From: Bacteroidetes bacterium GWF2_33_38
GTDB lineage: Bacteria; Bacteroidota; Bacteroidia; Bacteroidales; GWF2-33-38
Direction of reading: 5' to 3'
NCBI GenBank assembly: GCA_001769505.1
Contig: MEOF01000032.1
Coordinates: 62,001-126,000, forward strand
DNA length: 64,000 nt
Numbering within the stretch: the stretch's first letter is position 1; the number at the start of each line of letters is the position of its first letter. The position numbers and the translations under genes were made by a program. Below are positions 53,845 to 61,169 of this stretch, piece after piece. Under the pieces are notes generated by a model, which had not been told where the DNA came from, searched no databases, and saw only the letters and a list, made by a program, of their open reading frames with translations.

Positions 53845-53852
53845 TACATTTG
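53845..53852 (+). promoter_or_regulatory. -7 promoter element of the five-gene secreted operon
   Basis: TACATTTG matches TAnnTTTG. The expected start of the transcript, about 6-8 bases further, coincides with the first stem of the structured leader. Confidence 0.6.
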
Positions 53853-53856
53853 TAAT

Positions 53857-53932
53857 ACTGTGGAGCAAAACCACAATAAAAAATGGGCGATACCGAAAAG
53901 CCTTATGAGTAGGGATAATAAATATAAATTAT
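53857..53932 (+). promoter_or_regulatory. Structured 5' leader of the secreted operon
   Basis: The leader folds into three possible small stems: TGTGG/CCACA (53859-53875), GGC/GCC around GATACCGAAAA (53886-53902) and TTAT/ATAA around GAGTAGGG (53903-53918). It is compact, richer in G and C than its AT-rich surroundings, and starts where transcription should start. It might be a cis-acting RNA; no known riboswitch consensus was recognised. Confidence 0.45.
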
Positions 53933-55237
53933 ATGAATAAAAAAAATTTACTTTTGGCTTTAGTTGCATGCGTTGGTTTTATAAATACGACTTTTTCTCA
54001 AACAGAAGCCGTAAATGTAAAATATCGCAGAAGCTCATTGCATACAATTATTGTTGAATCCGAAAACTTTCCACGCAAAGATGTCGTTTTAAAAGCATAT
54101 CAAAATGCTCCATTCCCAGATAAATACAACGATCACTCAATTGGAGATAAGTCATTCGACCCTGCAAAATATCCTTTAACTGCTGAAGAAAAGTCAGGAT
54201 TATACAAATCATCAAAAATGGGGAAATTAGCAGCAAGTACTGGAGAAGTTACGATTGACTCTGTAAATAGAGAATTATCGGTAAGAATTGAAAAATATTT
54301 AGCACAAGAAAAAATAGCAAACAAACTTATTGCAAAATGGTTTAACCGTCAAGATGATGGCAGCTTTGACATGAATTTAATTGGCGAAAGAGGTTCATAC
54401 GATGCTACCGAAATGCAAGCAAATATTGCGAAAGGTTCTGCACGTGGCGTTTCTTCATTGGCTGATGCCGGAGAAGAATTAATTGGAAATACCTTTGTGG
54501 TAATTAATAAAATGAATTTTGTGGAAAATGAGCCTGCGGCAAGAATCGCTAGAGATATTGCAAAATCACAAGCTAATGGAATTAAATTACCTGTTGCTCA
54601 GCAAGCTGCATTAAAAGCTGCCGACGAAACATATGAAAAATCAAAAGAAGGATATTCTGTTTGGGCTACAGCATTCTTATATAAATTATCATGGAACGAT
54701 TCAATTTCGGCTGTTTTTTATAACGATTTATGGATAAATAAAGGCACTTCTGACGCAGCTAGAAAAGAAGCATTTGATAAAGCAAATTTTAATCTAGAAT
54801 TTGTTGGAGACGAAAAGGCTACTGGTTTAGTTTTGTTTTCATTGAAAGAAACTAGAACCGAAGACCAAATTATTGAATTGGCAACTGTTCGTACCATTGA
54901 TGCTGTTTACGCAAAACTTCAAAAGAAATACGATGTTTTCAAAACCAAAACGCCTATCTTAGGTGTAGACCCTATTACTGCAAAAATTGGAATGAAAGAA
55001 GGTTTAGAAGGCGGGGAATCGTTTGAAATACTTGAACAAAGCATTGACCCAAAAACTGGAATGACAGTTTACAATAGTAAAGGAAAAATTACGGTTGACA
55101 AAGATTTAATTTGGGACAATAGATACAATGCAGGAGATGGTCCAGTCGAAGGAACTCCAGCACCAACTCTTGACCGAACAACATTTAAAGGAGGTAAGAA
55201 ATTATATCCAGGCTTATTAATCAGACAAACTAAATAA
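53933..55237 (+). CDS. Secreted protein of unknown function, first gene of a five-gene operon (434 aa)
   Basis: A signal peptide (LLALVACVGFINTTFSQ) precedes a large soluble mature protein without cysteine after cleavage. It contains helical stretches and a repeated SVWATAFLYKLSWNDSISA-type strand region; no domain is recognised. It lies directly behind the structured leader and 20 bp before the next gene. All five genes in the operon encode exported proteins, so a joint envelope function is likely. Bacteroidota genomes carry relatives of unknown role. Confidence 0.65.
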   Translation: MNKKNLLLALVACVGFINTTFSQTEAVNVKYRRSSLHTIIVESENFPRKDVVLKAYQNAPFPDKYNDHSIGDKSFDPAKYPLTAEEKSGLYKSSKMGKLAASTGEVTIDSVNRELSVRIEKYLAQEKIANKLIAKWFNRQDDGSFDMNLIGERGSYDATEMQANIAKGSARGVSSLADAGEELIGNTFVVINKMNFVENEPAARIARDIAKSQANGIKLPVAQQAALKAADETYEKSKEGYSVWATAFLYKLSWNDSISAVFYNDLWINKGTSDAARKEAFDKANFNLEFVGDEKATGLVLFSLKETRTEDQIIELATVRTIDAVYAKLQKKYDVFKTKTPILGVDPITAKIGMKEGLEGGESFEILEQSIDPKTGMTVYNSKGKITVDKDLIWDNRYNAGDGPVEGTPAPTLDRTTFKGGKKLYPGLLIRQTK

Positions 55238-55257
55238 TAAACTAAATTTTTATAAAT

Positions 55258-55782
55258 ATGAAAACATTAATCAATCGCTTAAGTTTTATTTTTATTCTAT
55301 CCTTATGTACTTCTTTGGTTACTTTTGCTCAAGCAGGAAAAAAAGCTGACAAAGACACCGAAGCATGGAGATATGAAGTGGAATGTGTATCTACAGGAGC
55401 TGCTGGTACATATTTAATAAAAGTATGGTCGTATTCAAAAAAACCGAATGTGGCAATCGAACAAGCTAAAAAGAATGCTGTTCATGGTATTATTTTCAAA
55501 GGATTTTCAGGAGCTGGTGCTGGTTGTACACAAAAACCATTAGCAAACAGCCCTGCATTAGAAGAAGAAAAAGCAGACTTTTTTACTGAATTTTTTACCG
55601 ATGGTGGAAAATATATGAAATTTGTTAGTGTTACAAACGACGGAGCTATTCAAGCTGGGGATGTTGTGAAAATAGGCAAAGAATACAAAGTTGGAGTAGT
55701 TGTTTCGGTGTTAAAAGATAATCTAAGAAAAGATTTAGAATCTGCCGGAATAATCAAAGGTTTAGATGGTGGTTTATTTTAA
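55258..55782 (+). CDS. Secreted LPP20/FlgT-like domain protein, copy 1
   Basis: The 174-residue protein has a signal peptide (LVTFAQ) and a mature domain YEVECVSTGAAGTYLIKVWSY followed by a helix AIEQAKKNAVHGIIFKG. This strand-helix pattern (W/A-AI-x-AKKNA) recalls the LPP20/FlgT N-terminal fold found in envelope assembly proteins. Residues KEYKVGVVVSVLKDNLRKDLE close the domain. It is a paralogue of the next gene product, sharing the YE-EC, KVWS, AIEQAKKNAV and FF-DGG motifs. Confidence 0.65.
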   Translation: MKTLINRLSFIFILSLCTSLVTFAQAGKKADKDTEAWRYEVECVSTGAAGTYLIKVWSYSKKPNVAIEQAKKNAVHGIIFKGFSGAGAGCTQKPLANSPALEEEKADFFTEFFTDGGKYMKFVSVTNDGAIQAGDVVKIGKEYKVGVVVSVLKDNLRKDLESAGIIKGLDGGLF

Positions 55783-55793
55783 TAGGCAATACT

Positions 55794-56297
55794 ATGAAAA
55801 GTAAATTAGTAATATTTTCGATAATTGTGCTGATGTTCAGCACAATTGTTGAATCTTGCTTTGCACAAGATAAAAACTCAGGCTATTACACCTATGAAAC
55901 TGAATGTTTGGGAGTTGAGTTAGATGGTTCACAAACACTCAAAGTTTGGGGAAGTGGTAGAAATCGTGCTGATGCAATTGAACAAGCCAAGAAAAACGCA
56001 GTTCGAGATGTCTTGTTTAACGGAATAAAAAAAGGCAAATCAGAATGTAACGTAAAACCTGTTATTTTTGAAGTTAATGCACAAGAAAAACATGAAGATT
56101 ATTTTAATAAATTTTTTGCTGATGGTGGTGATTTTCAAAAATTTGTATCCCCTAAAGATGGCTCAAAATATCACGTAGAAGTAATAAAAGATAGAAAAAA
56201 AGCTGGCTCACAAGAAAATTATGCAGTTACTGTTCGTATTCTTCGTGCTGAACTTAAAACCAAAATGACAGAAGATAATATATTAAAAACCAATTAA
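55794..56297 (+). CDS. Secreted LPP20/FlgT-like domain protein, copy 2
   Basis: The 167-residue paralogue has a signal peptide (SCFAQ) and the same fold markers: YETECLGVELDGSQTLKVWG, ADAIEQAKKNAVRDVLFNGI, EDYFNKFFADGGDFQKFV and YAVTVRILRAELKTKM. The signal peptide contains a Cys but no clear lipobox glycine/serine context, so soluble export is more likely. It starts 11 bp after copy 1. Confidence 0.65.
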   Translation: MKSKLVIFSIIVLMFSTIVESCFAQDKNSGYYTYETECLGVELDGSQTLKVWGSGRNRADAIEQAKKNAVRDVLFNGIKKGKSECNVKPVIFEVNAQEKHEDYFNKFFADGGDFQKFVSPKDGSKYHVEVIKDRKKAGSQENYAVTVRILRAELKTKMTEDNILKTN

Positions 56298-56310
56298 AAA
56301 TTAAAAGTCT

Positions 56311-57261
56311 ATGAAATCAAAATTAACATTATTTGTTGCTATATTTTTTATTAGCATTAGTCTTGGATTTTCTCAAGCAAAAAAACCAACCATTATGATT
56401 GTACCAAGTGATGTTTGGTGTAATACAAACGGTTACATGATGGAATTTGATAATCAAGGAACAGTTGTGAAAATTCCTGATTATAAAAAAGCATTGCAAG
56501 AAAATGCCGATTTATTAACAGTTATTAGTAAAATAAATGGAATGATGGCTGAAAGAGGATTTCCACTAAAAAATATGGAATCTGCAATTAAAACATTAGA
56601 ATCAGAAAGTGCTGAAGATGCGATGCTTACAAGCAAAGGAGGAGCTAGTGTAAACGAAAGCCCAATCGACAAACTTAAAAAAGTTGCAAAAGCCGACATT
56701 ATCATGCAATTAACATGGACATTGAATACTACCGGACCTAAAAAATCGGTAACATTCAATTTACAAGGATTAGATTCTTATACCGACAAACAAGTTGCAA
56801 CAGCAGTTGGAACGGGAGCACCATCGTTTTCAGCAGAAATTCCTGTATTATTAGAGGAAGCAGTTCTTGCTCATCTTGACAATTTTAACGCTTCGCTTCA
56901 AGCTCATTTTGAAGATATGGGAACAAACGGTCGTGAAATTATTATCAGAATCAAAAAATTTGACTCATGGGAAGAAGATTTGGAAACCGAATATGATGGA
57001 AAAGAATTATCATCAATAATTGAAGGATGGATGACCGAAAATTGTGTGAACGGAAGATTTAGCACAAGCGATGCAACTGAAAATATGATGCTTTTCGAAC
57101 AAGTTCGTATCCCTTTGTATGGAGCTGATGGTAAGGCAATTGATGCTCGTGGATTTGCAAAAGGATTACAAAAATTCTTAAAAGAACCTCCATATGAAAT
57201 TACAAATAAGTTGATGATGAAGGGTCTTGGTCAAGCTGTAATCGTATTAGGAGATAAATAA
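56311..57261 (+). CDS. Secreted DUF6175-like protein
   Basis: The 316-residue protein has a signal peptide (SLGFSQ) and a mature start KKPTIMIVPSDVWCNTNGYM. The first strand and the helix pattern resemble CsgG/LpoB-type proteins, and the overall match is to the DUF6175 family of Bacteroidota as far as can be recalled. Two alpha/beta parts (about 20-190 and 195-316) look like tandem domains. DUF6175 genes tend to lie beside genes of the preceding type. The function is unknown. Confidence 0.65.
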   Translation: MKSKLTLFVAIFFISISLGFSQAKKPTIMIVPSDVWCNTNGYMMEFDNQGTVVKIPDYKKALQENADLLTVISKINGMMAERGFPLKNMESAIKTLESESAEDAMLTSKGGASVNESPIDKLKKVAKADIIMQLTWTLNTTGPKKSVTFNLQGLDSYTDKQVATAVGTGAPSFSAEIPVLLEEAVLAHLDNFNASLQAHFEDMGTNGREIIIRIKKFDSWEEDLETEYDGKELSSIIEGWMTENCVNGRFSTSDATENMMLFEQVRIPLYGADGKAIDARGFAKGLQKFLKEPPYEITNKLMMKGLGQAVIVLGDK

Positions 57262-57284
57262 AAATAATATTAAACCAATTAAAT

Positions 57285-58241
57285 ATGAAAAAAATACTTT
57301 TTATTGCCTTGGCTTTCGTAGTTTCAATAAATACTATGAAAGCTCAAAATTCAACAGGCAAAATGGACGACAAGGGCAGATTGGCTCTTACGGCTTGGGT
57401 TCCTGAGCAAATTGAAAGCATGCCTGTTGCTGCTAGAAAAAATTTAGAAAATAAATTGAGTCAAATTATTACTTCAAATGGTATGGCAGGAAGTCCGTTT
57501 AACTCAAGATTTATTATTACTGCAAATGTTACCGTTTTAACTAAAGATTTAACTGCGACTGCTCCTCCTATGCAAGCTTACACGCTTGACGTTACGCTAT
57601 ATATTGGCGACGGCTTTGAAGGAAAAAGCTTTGCAAGTTATTCTACTACTGTAAAAGGTGTTGGAGAAAATGAAACAAAGGCTTACATGGCTGCACTTAA
57701 AAACATAAAATCTAGCAACCCTGAATATCAAGCATTTATTGAAAAAGGAAAGAATAAAATTATTGAATATTACAATACACAATGTGATTTCATAATTAAA
57801 GAAGCTCAAACACTCGAAAGTCAAAATAAATTTGACGAAGCAATATGGAAATTGACTAGTGTTCCTGATGTTTGTGCCGATTGTTTCAATAAATGCATGG
57901 ACGCAGTTGCACCTATTTTCAAAAAGAAAATAGATTACGATTGTAAAGTAAAATTGACCGAAGCTAACAATGTTTGGGCAGCAAGTCAAAATTACGACGG
58001 AGCTAGTTCTGCTGGAGCTATTCTTTCAACTATCGACCCAGAAGCTGCTTGTTATAACGAAGCAAAAGCATTATCGTCGCAAATGGCAAAAAGAGTGTTG
58101 GAAATCGATAAAAGAGAGTGGAACTTAACTTGGGAACAAGAAGTTGGTCTTGAACGCGATAGAATAAAAGCATACAGAGACATAGGAGTTGCATGGGGAA
58201 ATGGACAACCTCAAAATGTTACATATAAAAGTTTGTGGTAG
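57285..58241 (+). CDS. Secreted protein with C-terminal helical repeat region, last operon gene (318 aa)
   Basis: After a signal peptide (TMKAQ) comes an alpha/beta domain (FIITANVTVLTKDLTATAPPM..., about 20-165) and then a helical region with four cysteines (DVCADCFNKCM and YDCKVKL) that resembles TPR-like repeats (QTLESQNKFDEAIWKLTSVP). The N-terminal half has a strand pattern seen in penicillin-binding protein activators. It is the last gene before a strong terminator. Confidence 0.62.
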   Translation: MKKILFIALAFVVSINTMKAQNSTGKMDDKGRLALTAWVPEQIESMPVAARKNLENKLSQIITSNGMAGSPFNSRFIITANVTVLTKDLTATAPPMQAYTLDVTLYIGDGFEGKSFASYSTTVKGVGENETKAYMAALKNIKSSNPEYQAFIEKGKNKIIEYYNTQCDFIIKEAQTLESQNKFDEAIWKLTSVPDVCADCFNKCMDAVAPIFKKKIDYDCKVKLTEANNVWAASQNYDGASSAGAILSTIDPEAACYNEAKALSSQMAKRVLEIDKREWNLTWEQEVGLERDRIKAYRDIGVAWGNGQPQNVTYKSLW

Positions 58242-58259: not shown

Positions 58260-58298
58260 AAAACAAAAGCACATTGAATCAATGTGCTTTTGTTTTTT
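58260..58298 (+). terminator. Terminator of the five-gene operon
   Basis: AAAACAAAAGCACATTGA and TCAATGTGCTTTTGTTTT form a perfect stem around a 2-base AA... loop and are followed by T residues. It ends transcription from the left and could serve the SpoIIE gene from the right. Confidence 0.9.
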
Positions 58299-58378: not shown

Positions 58379-60865
58379 TTAAATTTTCATTCCCAAAATA
58401 GTAATATCATCAATTTGTTCGTAATCCCCTCGCCATTCAATCATTGCTTTTTCCATTACAAGCTTTTGCTCCATCATTGATAAATGACAATTGTTAATGA
58501 ATAGTTGTTTCAATTGCTTCGACATAAATTTTTTGCCTTTTGAGCCTCCAAATTGGTCTTGAAAACCATCACTGGTAAGATAAATAGAATCACCTTTGAA
58601 TAATTGTATTTCGTGATTTGTAAACGGATTCATATGTTCAAAAATTGCGACAGGCATTTTATCTGGCTTTAGTTCATAAAGTTCAAAGTTAAAAGTTGAA
58701 AGTTCATCAAGTTTAGTATTTTCTTCATTTTTCACTATGTAAAGTGGATTATTTGCACCTGCCCATTGAGCGAGATAATAATTATTAATTGAAAATTGTG
58801 AATTGTCAATTACCACAAGGCTTATGTCCATTCCATCTTTCTGTTCTTCTAAACTTCCTTTTTGTTGAAGAGCTTCAATAATTGATATTCGCAAATAATC
58901 GAGTACTTCGCTGGCTTTTGTAACTTCTTTTTTACGAACAATTTCATTTAAAAAAGAAACTCCAAGCATACTCATAAACGCACCTGGAACGCCATGACCT
59001 GTACAATCAGCCACTGTTACAATAAGCATTTCGTTCACACGTGTTGCCCAATAAAAATCGCCTGAAACAATGTCTTTAGGTTTAAATAAAATAAAATGTG
59101 AGCCTAAAATTTTATTGGCATAATCACCAGTAGGCAAAACAGCTTGTTGAATATTTAAAGCATAATTAATACTATCGGTAATTTTTTGTTTTTGCTCTTC
59201 GATATGATCTTTTTGCGACATAACTAAATCACGCTGTGATTCGATTTCATCGCGTTGTGCCATAATTTCTTCGTTTTGCTGATTCAACAAACTATTCTTT
59301 TCATCAACAATTGCTTTTTGCTTTTCTATTATTAGCTTTTGCCTACGTGTAACTTTAAGTCGTTGTACTACAAAAAAAGCAAATACACCAATTAGAATTA
59401 TTCCGGCGATAACAAAAACAATAATTATTTTTTGTTGACGGCCCGTTTCTTGTTGTCTGAGCAATTCTGATTGTTGCAACTCTTTTTCCTTGTTTAGTTT
59501 CTCTATTTGAAGTTGTTTTTTTTCTGATTCAAACTTTTTTTCCGCATCCGCAATCGAAGACGTCTTCTCTAATTCAAACATGCTATCATTCGCAGCAATA
59601 AAAATCTCAGCAAATTCAAAAGCTTTTTCGAAGTCCCCCATCATCTTATATGCACTAATTATTGTATGAGAAGCTTCTCTTTGGCGAGGAATAGCATTAA
59701 TTTCTTTGGCGAGTAGATATGCTTTTGTTCCATATTCAAGAGCTTTTTTTAAATATGTCGATTTTTCAATTGATGAGTTGGCAAGCAAAACATTCAAAGC
59801 TCCAATATTATTATAACATACAATAAGTCCGTTTTTATCCCCTATTTGTTCAACTATCTCCAATGCATTTTGATAATATTCAATAGCCATATCAAAATTG
59901 CCTTTAGCTTCATACACTTGTCCTATATTTGAATAACAAGCAGAACTTCCACTTATATCTCCTAATTTTTGAGTAATTAATAGTGATTTATTGTAATAAT
60001 CAATTGCTGTTTCATGCTCTTTTTTTGCATTGTAAATAATTCCCAAGTTATTATAGCAACCCGACATTCCTCTTAAATCGCCTAATTCTTCTTTATATTT
60101 CAACGATTTTAAATAATACTGAATTGCTTTTTCATAACTATTTTGAAAAAAATGAATATTTCCAATATTGTTGTAACAGTATGAAATTCCTTTTTTATCA
60201 TTAATTTTTTCCAAATAAGTTAACGATTTTAAATAATGCTGAATCGCTTTATCAAAACCCCCCATATCGGTATAAATACTTCCTATATTTGTATAACATC
60301 CAGCAATGCCTCTTTTATCGCCAACTTCGGTATTTAATTTCAATGAATTATTGTAAAATTCCATTGCTTGTTCATAATTGCCTTGGTCAGAATATACGTT
60401 CCCAAGACTAGTATTGCAACTTGCTAAACCTTTTTTGCCTTCAAAAATATGATTCGGGGTAGATTCTTTGTCAATAATTTCATTATAAATATTCATCGAT
60501 TTTAAATAAAAATCTATTGCCTCATCATAAATCCCCAAACCGTTTTTTACAAATCCAATATACCTCAAAGATGTTGCTTTATGAACTAGAAATTTTACTC
60601 TTAAGATATCATCATTTTTTTTCGACAAGCCTTTATCAGCGATATTTAAAGCTTCGTTGTAAAAAAATACAGCAGTGTCAGGATTTTCAGATTCAAAATA
60701 ATACCCGATTTCCTCATTTAAGAGTATAATGCGAGTTGTATCGTGCTTGGCATTTTTATAAAGAGCCCATAATGAATCAATATTTTGATTCTGCGAAAAA
60801 CAAGAAAACATAGATTCTCCAATAACGAAAACCAACAAAAGTAAAAAAGGCTTAATTAATCTCAT
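58379..60865 (-). CDS. TPR-containing SpoIIE/PP2C-type serine phosphatase
   Basis: A signal or anchor sequence is followed by eight to nine TPRs (about 70-420, unit YYNKSLLITQKLGDISGSS), a membrane segment (about 478-503), a long coiled coil (505-575) and a C-terminal SpoIIE phosphatase domain (about 590-828). The latter has FKPKDIVSGDFYWA, VADCTGHGVPGAFMSMLG and SDGFQDQFGG, which hold the metal-binding aspartates. So a periplasmic TPR sensor would control a cytoplasmic phosphatase, likely in an anti-sigma/anti-anti-sigma switch. The start at 60865 fits the signal peptide; three more codons are possible. A minus-strand TATCTTTG lies at 60889-60896. Confidence 0.88.
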   Translation of the reverse strand: MRLIKPFLLLLVFVIGESMFSCFSQNQNIDSLWALYKNAKHDTTRIILLNEEIGYYFESENPDTAVFFYNEALNIADKGLSKKNDDILRVKFLVHKATSLRYIGFVKNGLGIYDEAIDFYLKSMNIYNEIIDKESTPNHIFEGKKGLASCNTSLGNVYSDQGNYEQAMEFYNNSLKLNTEVGDKRGIAGCYTNIGSIYTDMGGFDKAIQHYLKSLTYLEKINDKKGISYCYNNIGNIHFFQNSYEKAIQYYLKSLKYKEELGDLRGMSGCYNNLGIIYNAKKEHETAIDYYNKSLLITQKLGDISGSSACYSNIGQVYEAKGNFDMAIEYYQNALEIVEQIGDKNGLIVCYNNIGALNVLLANSSIEKSTYLKKALEYGTKAYLLAKEINAIPRQREASHTIISAYKMMGDFEKAFEFAEIFIAANDSMFELEKTSSIADAEKKFESEKKQLQIEKLNKEKELQQSELLRQQETGRQQKIIIVFVIAGIILIGVFAFFVVQRLKVTRRQKLIIEKQKAIVDEKNSLLNQQNEEIMAQRDEIESQRDLVMSQKDHIEEQKQKITDSINYALNIQQAVLPTGDYANKILGSHFILFKPKDIVSGDFYWATRVNEMLIVTVADCTGHGVPGAFMSMLGVSFLNEIVRKKEVTKASEVLDYLRISIIEALQQKGSLEEQKDGMDISLVVIDNSQFSINNYYLAQWAGANNPLYIVKNEENTKLDELSTFNFELYELKPDKMPVAIFEHMNPFTNHEIQLFKGDSIYLTSDGFQDQFGGSKGKKFMSKQLKQLFINNCHLSMMEQKLVMEKAMIEWRGDYEQIDDITILGMKI

Positions 60866-61169
60866 TTTATACAAAATACTTCTTTTTTCAAAGATAATTT
60901 TTTTTATATGAATTCTTAAAAAAATAGTATGCTTAATTCGATTGTATTTTGATGAGTTATAAAAACATAATTCTTATTCTTTTGTCATTAGCAAGCAAGC
61001 TATTAATCCTTGATATAATTCAGCGAAACTAAAGCTCATCACAAGAAAGTTCATCTTACGTTCAATAAAAAAGATAATTGACAATATTTTTTGTTGCAAT
61101 TACAGCTATGATATTAAAAAGTTATCTTACATTTTTTACTACCTTTGCCATGAATTTTAAAAAAAACAT
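60866..61169. other. Divergent promoter region
   Basis: Minus-strand TATCTTTG (60889-60896) serves the phosphatase gene and plus-strand TACCTTTG (61140-61147) serves the lipoprotein gene. Between them no gene or repeat was recognised. Confidence 0.55.

Follow-up and report, generated by a model that had tools for sequence, protein, structure and literature searches.

A conserved five-gene operon for secreted proteins in Bacteroidota, with predicted FlgT- and CsgG-type folds and a pseudoknotted DUF805 leader RNA

Among the closest described systems to the locus reported here are two flagellar accessories: the proteins FlgP, Lpp20 and FlgT have an SHS2-like fold in common, and two of them, FlgP and FlgT, build rings associated with the outer membrane (PMC12222027), while the Vibrio H-ring has been described separately (PMC6375700). 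We analyzed a stretch of 64,000 nucleotides (nt) from Bacteroidetes bacterium GWF2_33_38 (contig MEOF01000032.1, positions 62,001 to 126,000; hereafter the window, whose own numbering gives all coordinates), in which five genes on the plus strand, g1 to g5 (53933-58241), form a real conserved module that has apparently never been studied. All five encode secreted proteins; one is predicted to be FlgT-like, another has a predicted CsgG-type fold, and the set is headed by a structured leader RNA. Loci of relatives are labelled L and their genomes G, each with a number. The features are as follows.

53845-53852, plus strand: promoter-like TAnnTTTG element of the Bacteroidota type, TACATTTG, just upstream of the leader RNA (pattern match only)
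53855-53920, plus strand: 5′ leader RNA, DUF805 RNA of Rfam (RF03081)
53933-55237, plus strand: g1, secreted protein of 434 amino acids (aa), predicted fold of the FlgT middle and C-terminal domains with a helical insertion (AlphaFold2, AF2, and Foldseek)
55258-55782, plus strand: g2, secreted protein of 174 aa, paralogue of g3, with a possible, unproven FlgP/LPP20-type part (profile comparison)
55794-56297, plus strand: g3, secreted protein of 167 aa, paralogue of g2 (profile comparison)
56311-57261, plus strand: g4, secreted DUF6175 protein of 316 aa (Pfam profile and AF2)
57285-58241, plus strand: g5, secreted protein of 318 aa with an N-terminal domain followed by cysteine-bearing helices like those of tetratricopeptide repeats (TPR; Pfam models in homologues)
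58260-58296, no strand assigned: terminator-like inverted repeat of 17 pairs between the operon and a converging TPR-SpoIIE gene (hairpin scan and sequence)

The open reading frames lie exactly where the original prediction, made from the letters of the window, had placed them, separated by 20, 11, 13 and 23 nt, and its picture of a five-gene set framed by one promoter and leader and one terminator was borne out, with a promoter-like site and a terminator-like repeat. So was its claim of signal peptides on all five products, each of which has a hydrophobic N-terminus of the secretion type (as assessed by eye and with a simple heuristic applied to homologues), and a neighborhood check found that the genes are indeed kept together in other genomes. 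A single scan of public species genomes with the g4 profile returned 451 related stretches, 80 of which were fetched with their surroundings. In these loci, all of them fetched by g4, g2-type genes were present in 80/80, g5 in 77 and g1 in 76, and g3 occurred in about 48, being absent from many. The order g1, g2, (g3), g4, g5 and a shared strand held throughout the 80, contig ends aside, with median gaps of 16-20 nt; a conserved neighbor outside the module was sought in the same loci and not found, the most frequent outside family appearing in nine. As these are the nearest relatives (67-84% identity), the sample is biased, and more distant Bacteroidota loci, with g4 25-60% identical, drawn from a search of relatives and the phylum, also keep the module, with one rearrangement (L042, where g1 follows an extra gene). 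The spread is patchy, with DUF6175 present in 11 of 247 genomes sampled evenly across the phylum and a g1 match in 13 of 60 relatives in the order. Species of Pedobacter, Mucilaginibacter and Flavobacterium are among the carriers in L105-L184. A literature search found no paper naming DUF6175. As a separate observation, genome G039 carries a lone g1 homologue (L041:9762-11063) beside apparent NADH dehydrogenase (nuo) genes, the full operon being on another G039 contig.

The best-defined product is g4, which belongs to DUF6175 (PF19672; 426 bits over model positions 1-293 of 293, cut-off 23). Its AF2 model, with a predicted local distance difference test (pLDDT) score of 87, places residues 23-207 in the predicted fold shared by CsgG, PelC, the FlgT middle domain, TolB and LpoB, followed by a second small alpha/beta domain. 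The closest match was CsgG (4q79_C; Z 10.1, root-mean-square deviation (rmsd) 4.1 Å, 138 residues aligned), then PelC (Z 9.3), FlgT (Z 8.5) and LpoB (Z 6.8), with TolB also among the matches of this N-terminal domain, so that the CsgG/LpoB-type DUF6175 label of the original prediction holds at the level of family and predicted fold. By sequence g4 matched DUF6175 only and not the Pfam CsgG family (PF03783), of which no gene was found in the bacterium's own genome, and the AF2 secondary structure of g4 has no evident paired membrane β-hairpins like those of CsgG, showing instead a short helical, disordered insertion. For g1 (AF2 model pLDDT 82.5), the top two Foldseek matches were both FlgT (E 8e-6 and 2.8e-5, probability 1.00); these crystal and LPHT-ring chains of FlgT were the only convincing matches in the PDB, the next having an E-value of 0.05. 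The aligned range covers the FlgT middle and C domains, and we predict g1, to which the original prediction had assigned no family, to be the FlgT-like protein of the operon. No FlgT model was among the 25 Pfam matches listed at E up to 10 for 52 g1 homologues. Six long g1 proteins and the protein in the g1 position of L053 have C-terminal extensions that look like outer-membrane barrels, with alternating-pattern z values of 1.2-2.9 against about 0 for most cores and mostly hydrophobic or aromatic ends; one sub-threshold Pfam match (PF13505, E 0.27) accompanies them, a PDB profile search of the extensions found nothing, and the case for a barrel is, from this sequence pattern, only suggestive.

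For g2 and g3, which the original prediction had called LPP20/FlgT-like paralogues, the paralogy stands (hhalign 100%, E 1.6e-38), and the FlgT likeness belongs instead to g1 by Foldseek. Profile-profile comparison among the operon proteins gave no link besides this pair, no Pfam family passed its cut-off for g2/g3 homologues, and Pfam, NCBIfam and PDB sequence searches with g1, g2, g3 and g5 returned nothing significant. The sequence suggests a strand-helix-insert-strand topology for both proteins; g3 reaches 92% in hhalign against LPP20, mainly over the signal peptide and one helix, and among 52 g3 homologues at least 18 carry a lipobox. The TPR-like cysteine-bearing helices claimed for g5 are upheld in part: TPR-type Pfam models matched as many as 6 of the 14 homologues (best E 3.8e-7) and did not match the window's own protein.

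Variants of the module bring in further parts of the same kinds. DUF6175 is preceded by a fused g2-like domain in L044 and again in the distant lineage L031-L036 (hhalign 99.3-99.5%), and such fusions in two separate lineages suggest physical contact between the two proteins. In four genomes of the L031-L036 lineage, an LPP20 gene adjoins the DUF6175 gene by coordinates. Two LPP20-like neighbor genes accompany the module in seven Bacteroidales loci, and one of them in an eighth (hhalign of these families against LPP20 profiles 98.5 and 95.9%); in L056 they are encoded on the opposite strand. As a pair of about 190 and 430 aa they follow the operon at L045:11437-13316, L047:12620-14515, L120:12004-14010, L130:12008-14002 and L144:11999-14003, and the pair proteins scanned had no Pfam family over its cut-off. 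The protein in the g1 position of L051 scores just over the Pfam CsgG cut-off and, at 21.8 bits, just under that of LpoB (22.3). Lastly, three close loci encode a g3 homologue with a C-terminal caspase (Peptidase_C14) domain (L037:3200-4606, L040:10371-11762 and L109:2324-3694), a secreted protein of the metacaspase type whose His and Cys motifs, YYSGHGD and DACFSG, look intact.

The leader belongs to the DUF805 RNA family, its 59.9 bits against covariance model RF03081 exceeding the gathering cut-off of 51.1, and the g1 start codon lies 12 nt downstream of it. Its stems are 53860-53863/53871-53874 and 53886-53888/53900-53902, and a pseudoknot pairs 53893-53894 with 53912-53913, joining the loop of the second stem to the GG before the start codon (covarying CC/GG, window 53886-53913). 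A 20-copy alignment supports the two stems and the pseudoknot, with 97.8% of cells paired and double-sided changes in 6 of the 9 pairs; its covariation score was reached by none of 500 shuffles and all slid controls were far lower, the pseudoknot having been proposed from the same alignment that scored it. The cmscan consensus line cannot show pseudoknots, and we claim no novelty for this one. A pseudoknot that reaches so near the start codon suggests translation control or ligand binding. A sequence model of 27 DUF805 RNA copies was run against 95 sources, almost all of them operon loci. By comparison with the gene calls, its top 16 matches (E 0.015 or better) lay shortly upstream of the operon's first gene, except in L051, where the match precedes a gene standing in front of that first gene; four of these sources (the window, L037, L040 and L051) had supplied copies to the model. 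In the window's own genome this leader is the single copy that passes the cut-off, and a weaker one stands before another secreted-protein gene; in relatives, too, the RNA is found ahead of other genes, most of which encode secreted proteins, and often in several copies. In two further loci it looks locally amplified, with seven DUF805-like copies in L090:2298-11647 and five in L091:3386-8984, within about 10 kb and most of them immediately upstream of a gene whose product is secreted or a lipoprotein. A literature search found no paper on DUF805 RNA; its recurrent pairing with the operon gives this orphan RNA class a testable target operon.

The flanking signals are simpler. The TAnnTTTG element at 53845 stands 62 nt before the GAGTA anchor of the leader, a spacing kept (61-62 nt) in two members of the leader family, L037 and L040; the pattern itself occurs 7 times in 5.6 kb here against about 6 expected. 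In the stretches scanned, no general promoter motif common to all leader copies was found, TAnnTTTG being present at 8 of 37. Downstream, the hairpin scan listed the inverted repeat on the minus strand, but it is symmetrical, with T runs on both sides, and from its sequence it could terminate both the operon and the converging gene. That neighbor (58379-60874, minus strand), whose product is a TPR protein ending in a SpoIIE phosphatase domain, is not kept beside the operon elsewhere.

Operon layout, conservation, the fold predictions for g1 and g4 and the structure of the leader RNA are thus supported by computation; we infer complex formation, ring shape, location, purpose and the RNA's regulatory effect, the step from fold to ring included. 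Because the module repeatedly gathers FlgT-, CsgG- and LPP20-type parts, a set that resembles the components of the H-ring and basal disk, we prefer to read the operon as encoding a scaffold or ring that lies beneath the outer membrane and does not depend on a flagellum, with parts as in the Vibrio H-ring and the Campylobacter basal disk, and give this a little less than an even chance. On this account g1 would be a FlgT-like organizer through its middle and C domains, g4 would contribute an oligomerizing domain of the CsgG/FlgT-M type, g2 and g3 (g3 being lipidated in many cases) would serve as FlgP-like subunits for the ring or its anchoring, and g5 would act as an adaptor via its TPR-like helices. 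In some lineages a fused barrel may tether g1 to the outer membrane, some may add a caspase protease to g3, and the pseudoknotted DUF805 leader at the 5′ end of the mRNA, beside the first start codon, would set expression. That the operon is an unrecognized relative of the H-ring and basal disk, without a flagellum and widespread in Bacteroidota, built of FlgT-, CsgG- and FlgP-type parts, under the control of a pseudoknotted leader and in some lineages coupled to a secreted caspase, is a proposal we hold to be possible and rather doubtful; on it, such rings would be a general envelope device also used by flagella. If the module does build a ring or disk, FlgT/FlgP-type scaffolds would exist outside flagella, which would bear on the origin of those flagellar accessories.

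Several results weigh against a ring or scaffold. The CsgG-type fold is widespread (TolB, LptE, LpoB) and alone implies no rings. The rigid-body score of g1 against FlgT is modest (VIA-align Z 7.1-7.5, rmsd 12 Å), and so large a deviation is expected for domains that have moved apart but also for chance. None of the 19 g2/g3 homologues scanned, with hits allowed up to E 10, matched LPP20 (PF02169), which leaves the LPP20 half of the earlier label unsupported by sequence, and comparison of g2/g3 with 26 LPP20 domains by profile was weak. Gene-to-gene distance correlations are moderate (r 0.59-0.72) and show co-inheritance, not contact.

The fold of g4 could also be read as that of an outer-membrane export or assembly apparatus of the CsgG/PelC type, in which g4 would form a pore or collar and the other proteins would guide a substrate such as an amyloid or polysaccharide. 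CsgG (Z 10.1) and PelC (Z 9.3) are its closest folds and some g1 homologues may carry an outer-membrane barrel, but no conserved substrate, synthase or nucleator gene lies beside the module in the 80 loci, the g4 model lacks CsgG-like membrane hairpins, and the own genome has no Pfam CsgG gene; we consider such an apparatus unlikely. The same evidence divides the original description of an uncharacterized envelope assembly machine: a multi-protein envelope system is well supported, but no transported or assembled substrate is indicated and g4 shows no obvious membrane hairpins, and a structural ring or scaffold is a better match to the evidence than machinery for secretion or assembly. A module for envelope stress or signalling, whose five proteins would detect damage and, in certain lineages, set free a protease of the caspase type, is favored by the caspase domain with intact-looking His and Cys motifs on g3 in L037, L040 and L109, but the fusion is confined to these three close loci, the window's g3 and most genomes having no caspase, and we rate this as quite improbable.

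Regulation of peptidoglycan synthesis in the manner of LpoB, in which lipoprotein and soluble domains of the envelope would bind to cell-wall synthases and switch them on, is in our estimate less probable again. LpoB shares the g4 fold (Z 6.8) and the L051 protein comes close to its Pfam cut-off (21.8 against 22.3 bits), but no penicillin-binding protein or other cell-wall gene recurs beside the module, and five co-conserved proteins exceed what such an activator needs. The least probable alternative, a long shot, makes the operon an accessory part of the type 9 secretion or gliding machinery (a PorK/N-type ring). GldM is present in all 15 operon-bearing genomes tested, but also in 58 of 60 relatives in the order, most of them without the operon, so the association is uninformative, and no Por/Gld gene family recurs beside the module; the link was tested and dropped, GldM being nearly universal in the order.

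Set against known systems, the locus is most like the Vibrio H-ring (FlgO, FlgP and FlgT) in that g1 is predicted to resemble the FlgT middle and C domains, g4 has a predicted FlgT-M/CsgG-type fold and small partner proteins are encoded alongside. It differs in that FlgH, the one flagellar gene searched for, was not found in any of 15 carrier genomes, no FlgT N-domain aligned on g1, g2 and g3 match no LPP20 model, and g5 has no named counterpart. With the Campylobacter basal disk (FlgP) it shares small secreted proteins, g2 and g3, the latter often lipidated, whose strand-helix-insert-strand order resembles the description of FlgP (PMC12222027), but this likeness is one of topology as read from the letters, with no significant profile match, and no flagellum is indicated. 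The CsgG/PelC export lipoproteins share the predicted fold of g4 residues 23-207, whereas the window's g4 has a signal peptide in place of a lipobox, an extra C-terminal domain, no evident membrane hairpins and no substrate genes. As for DUF805 RNA, the window's leader scores above the curated cut-off and adjoins a start codon, and it differs in heading a five-gene operon, with a covarying pseudoknot documented.

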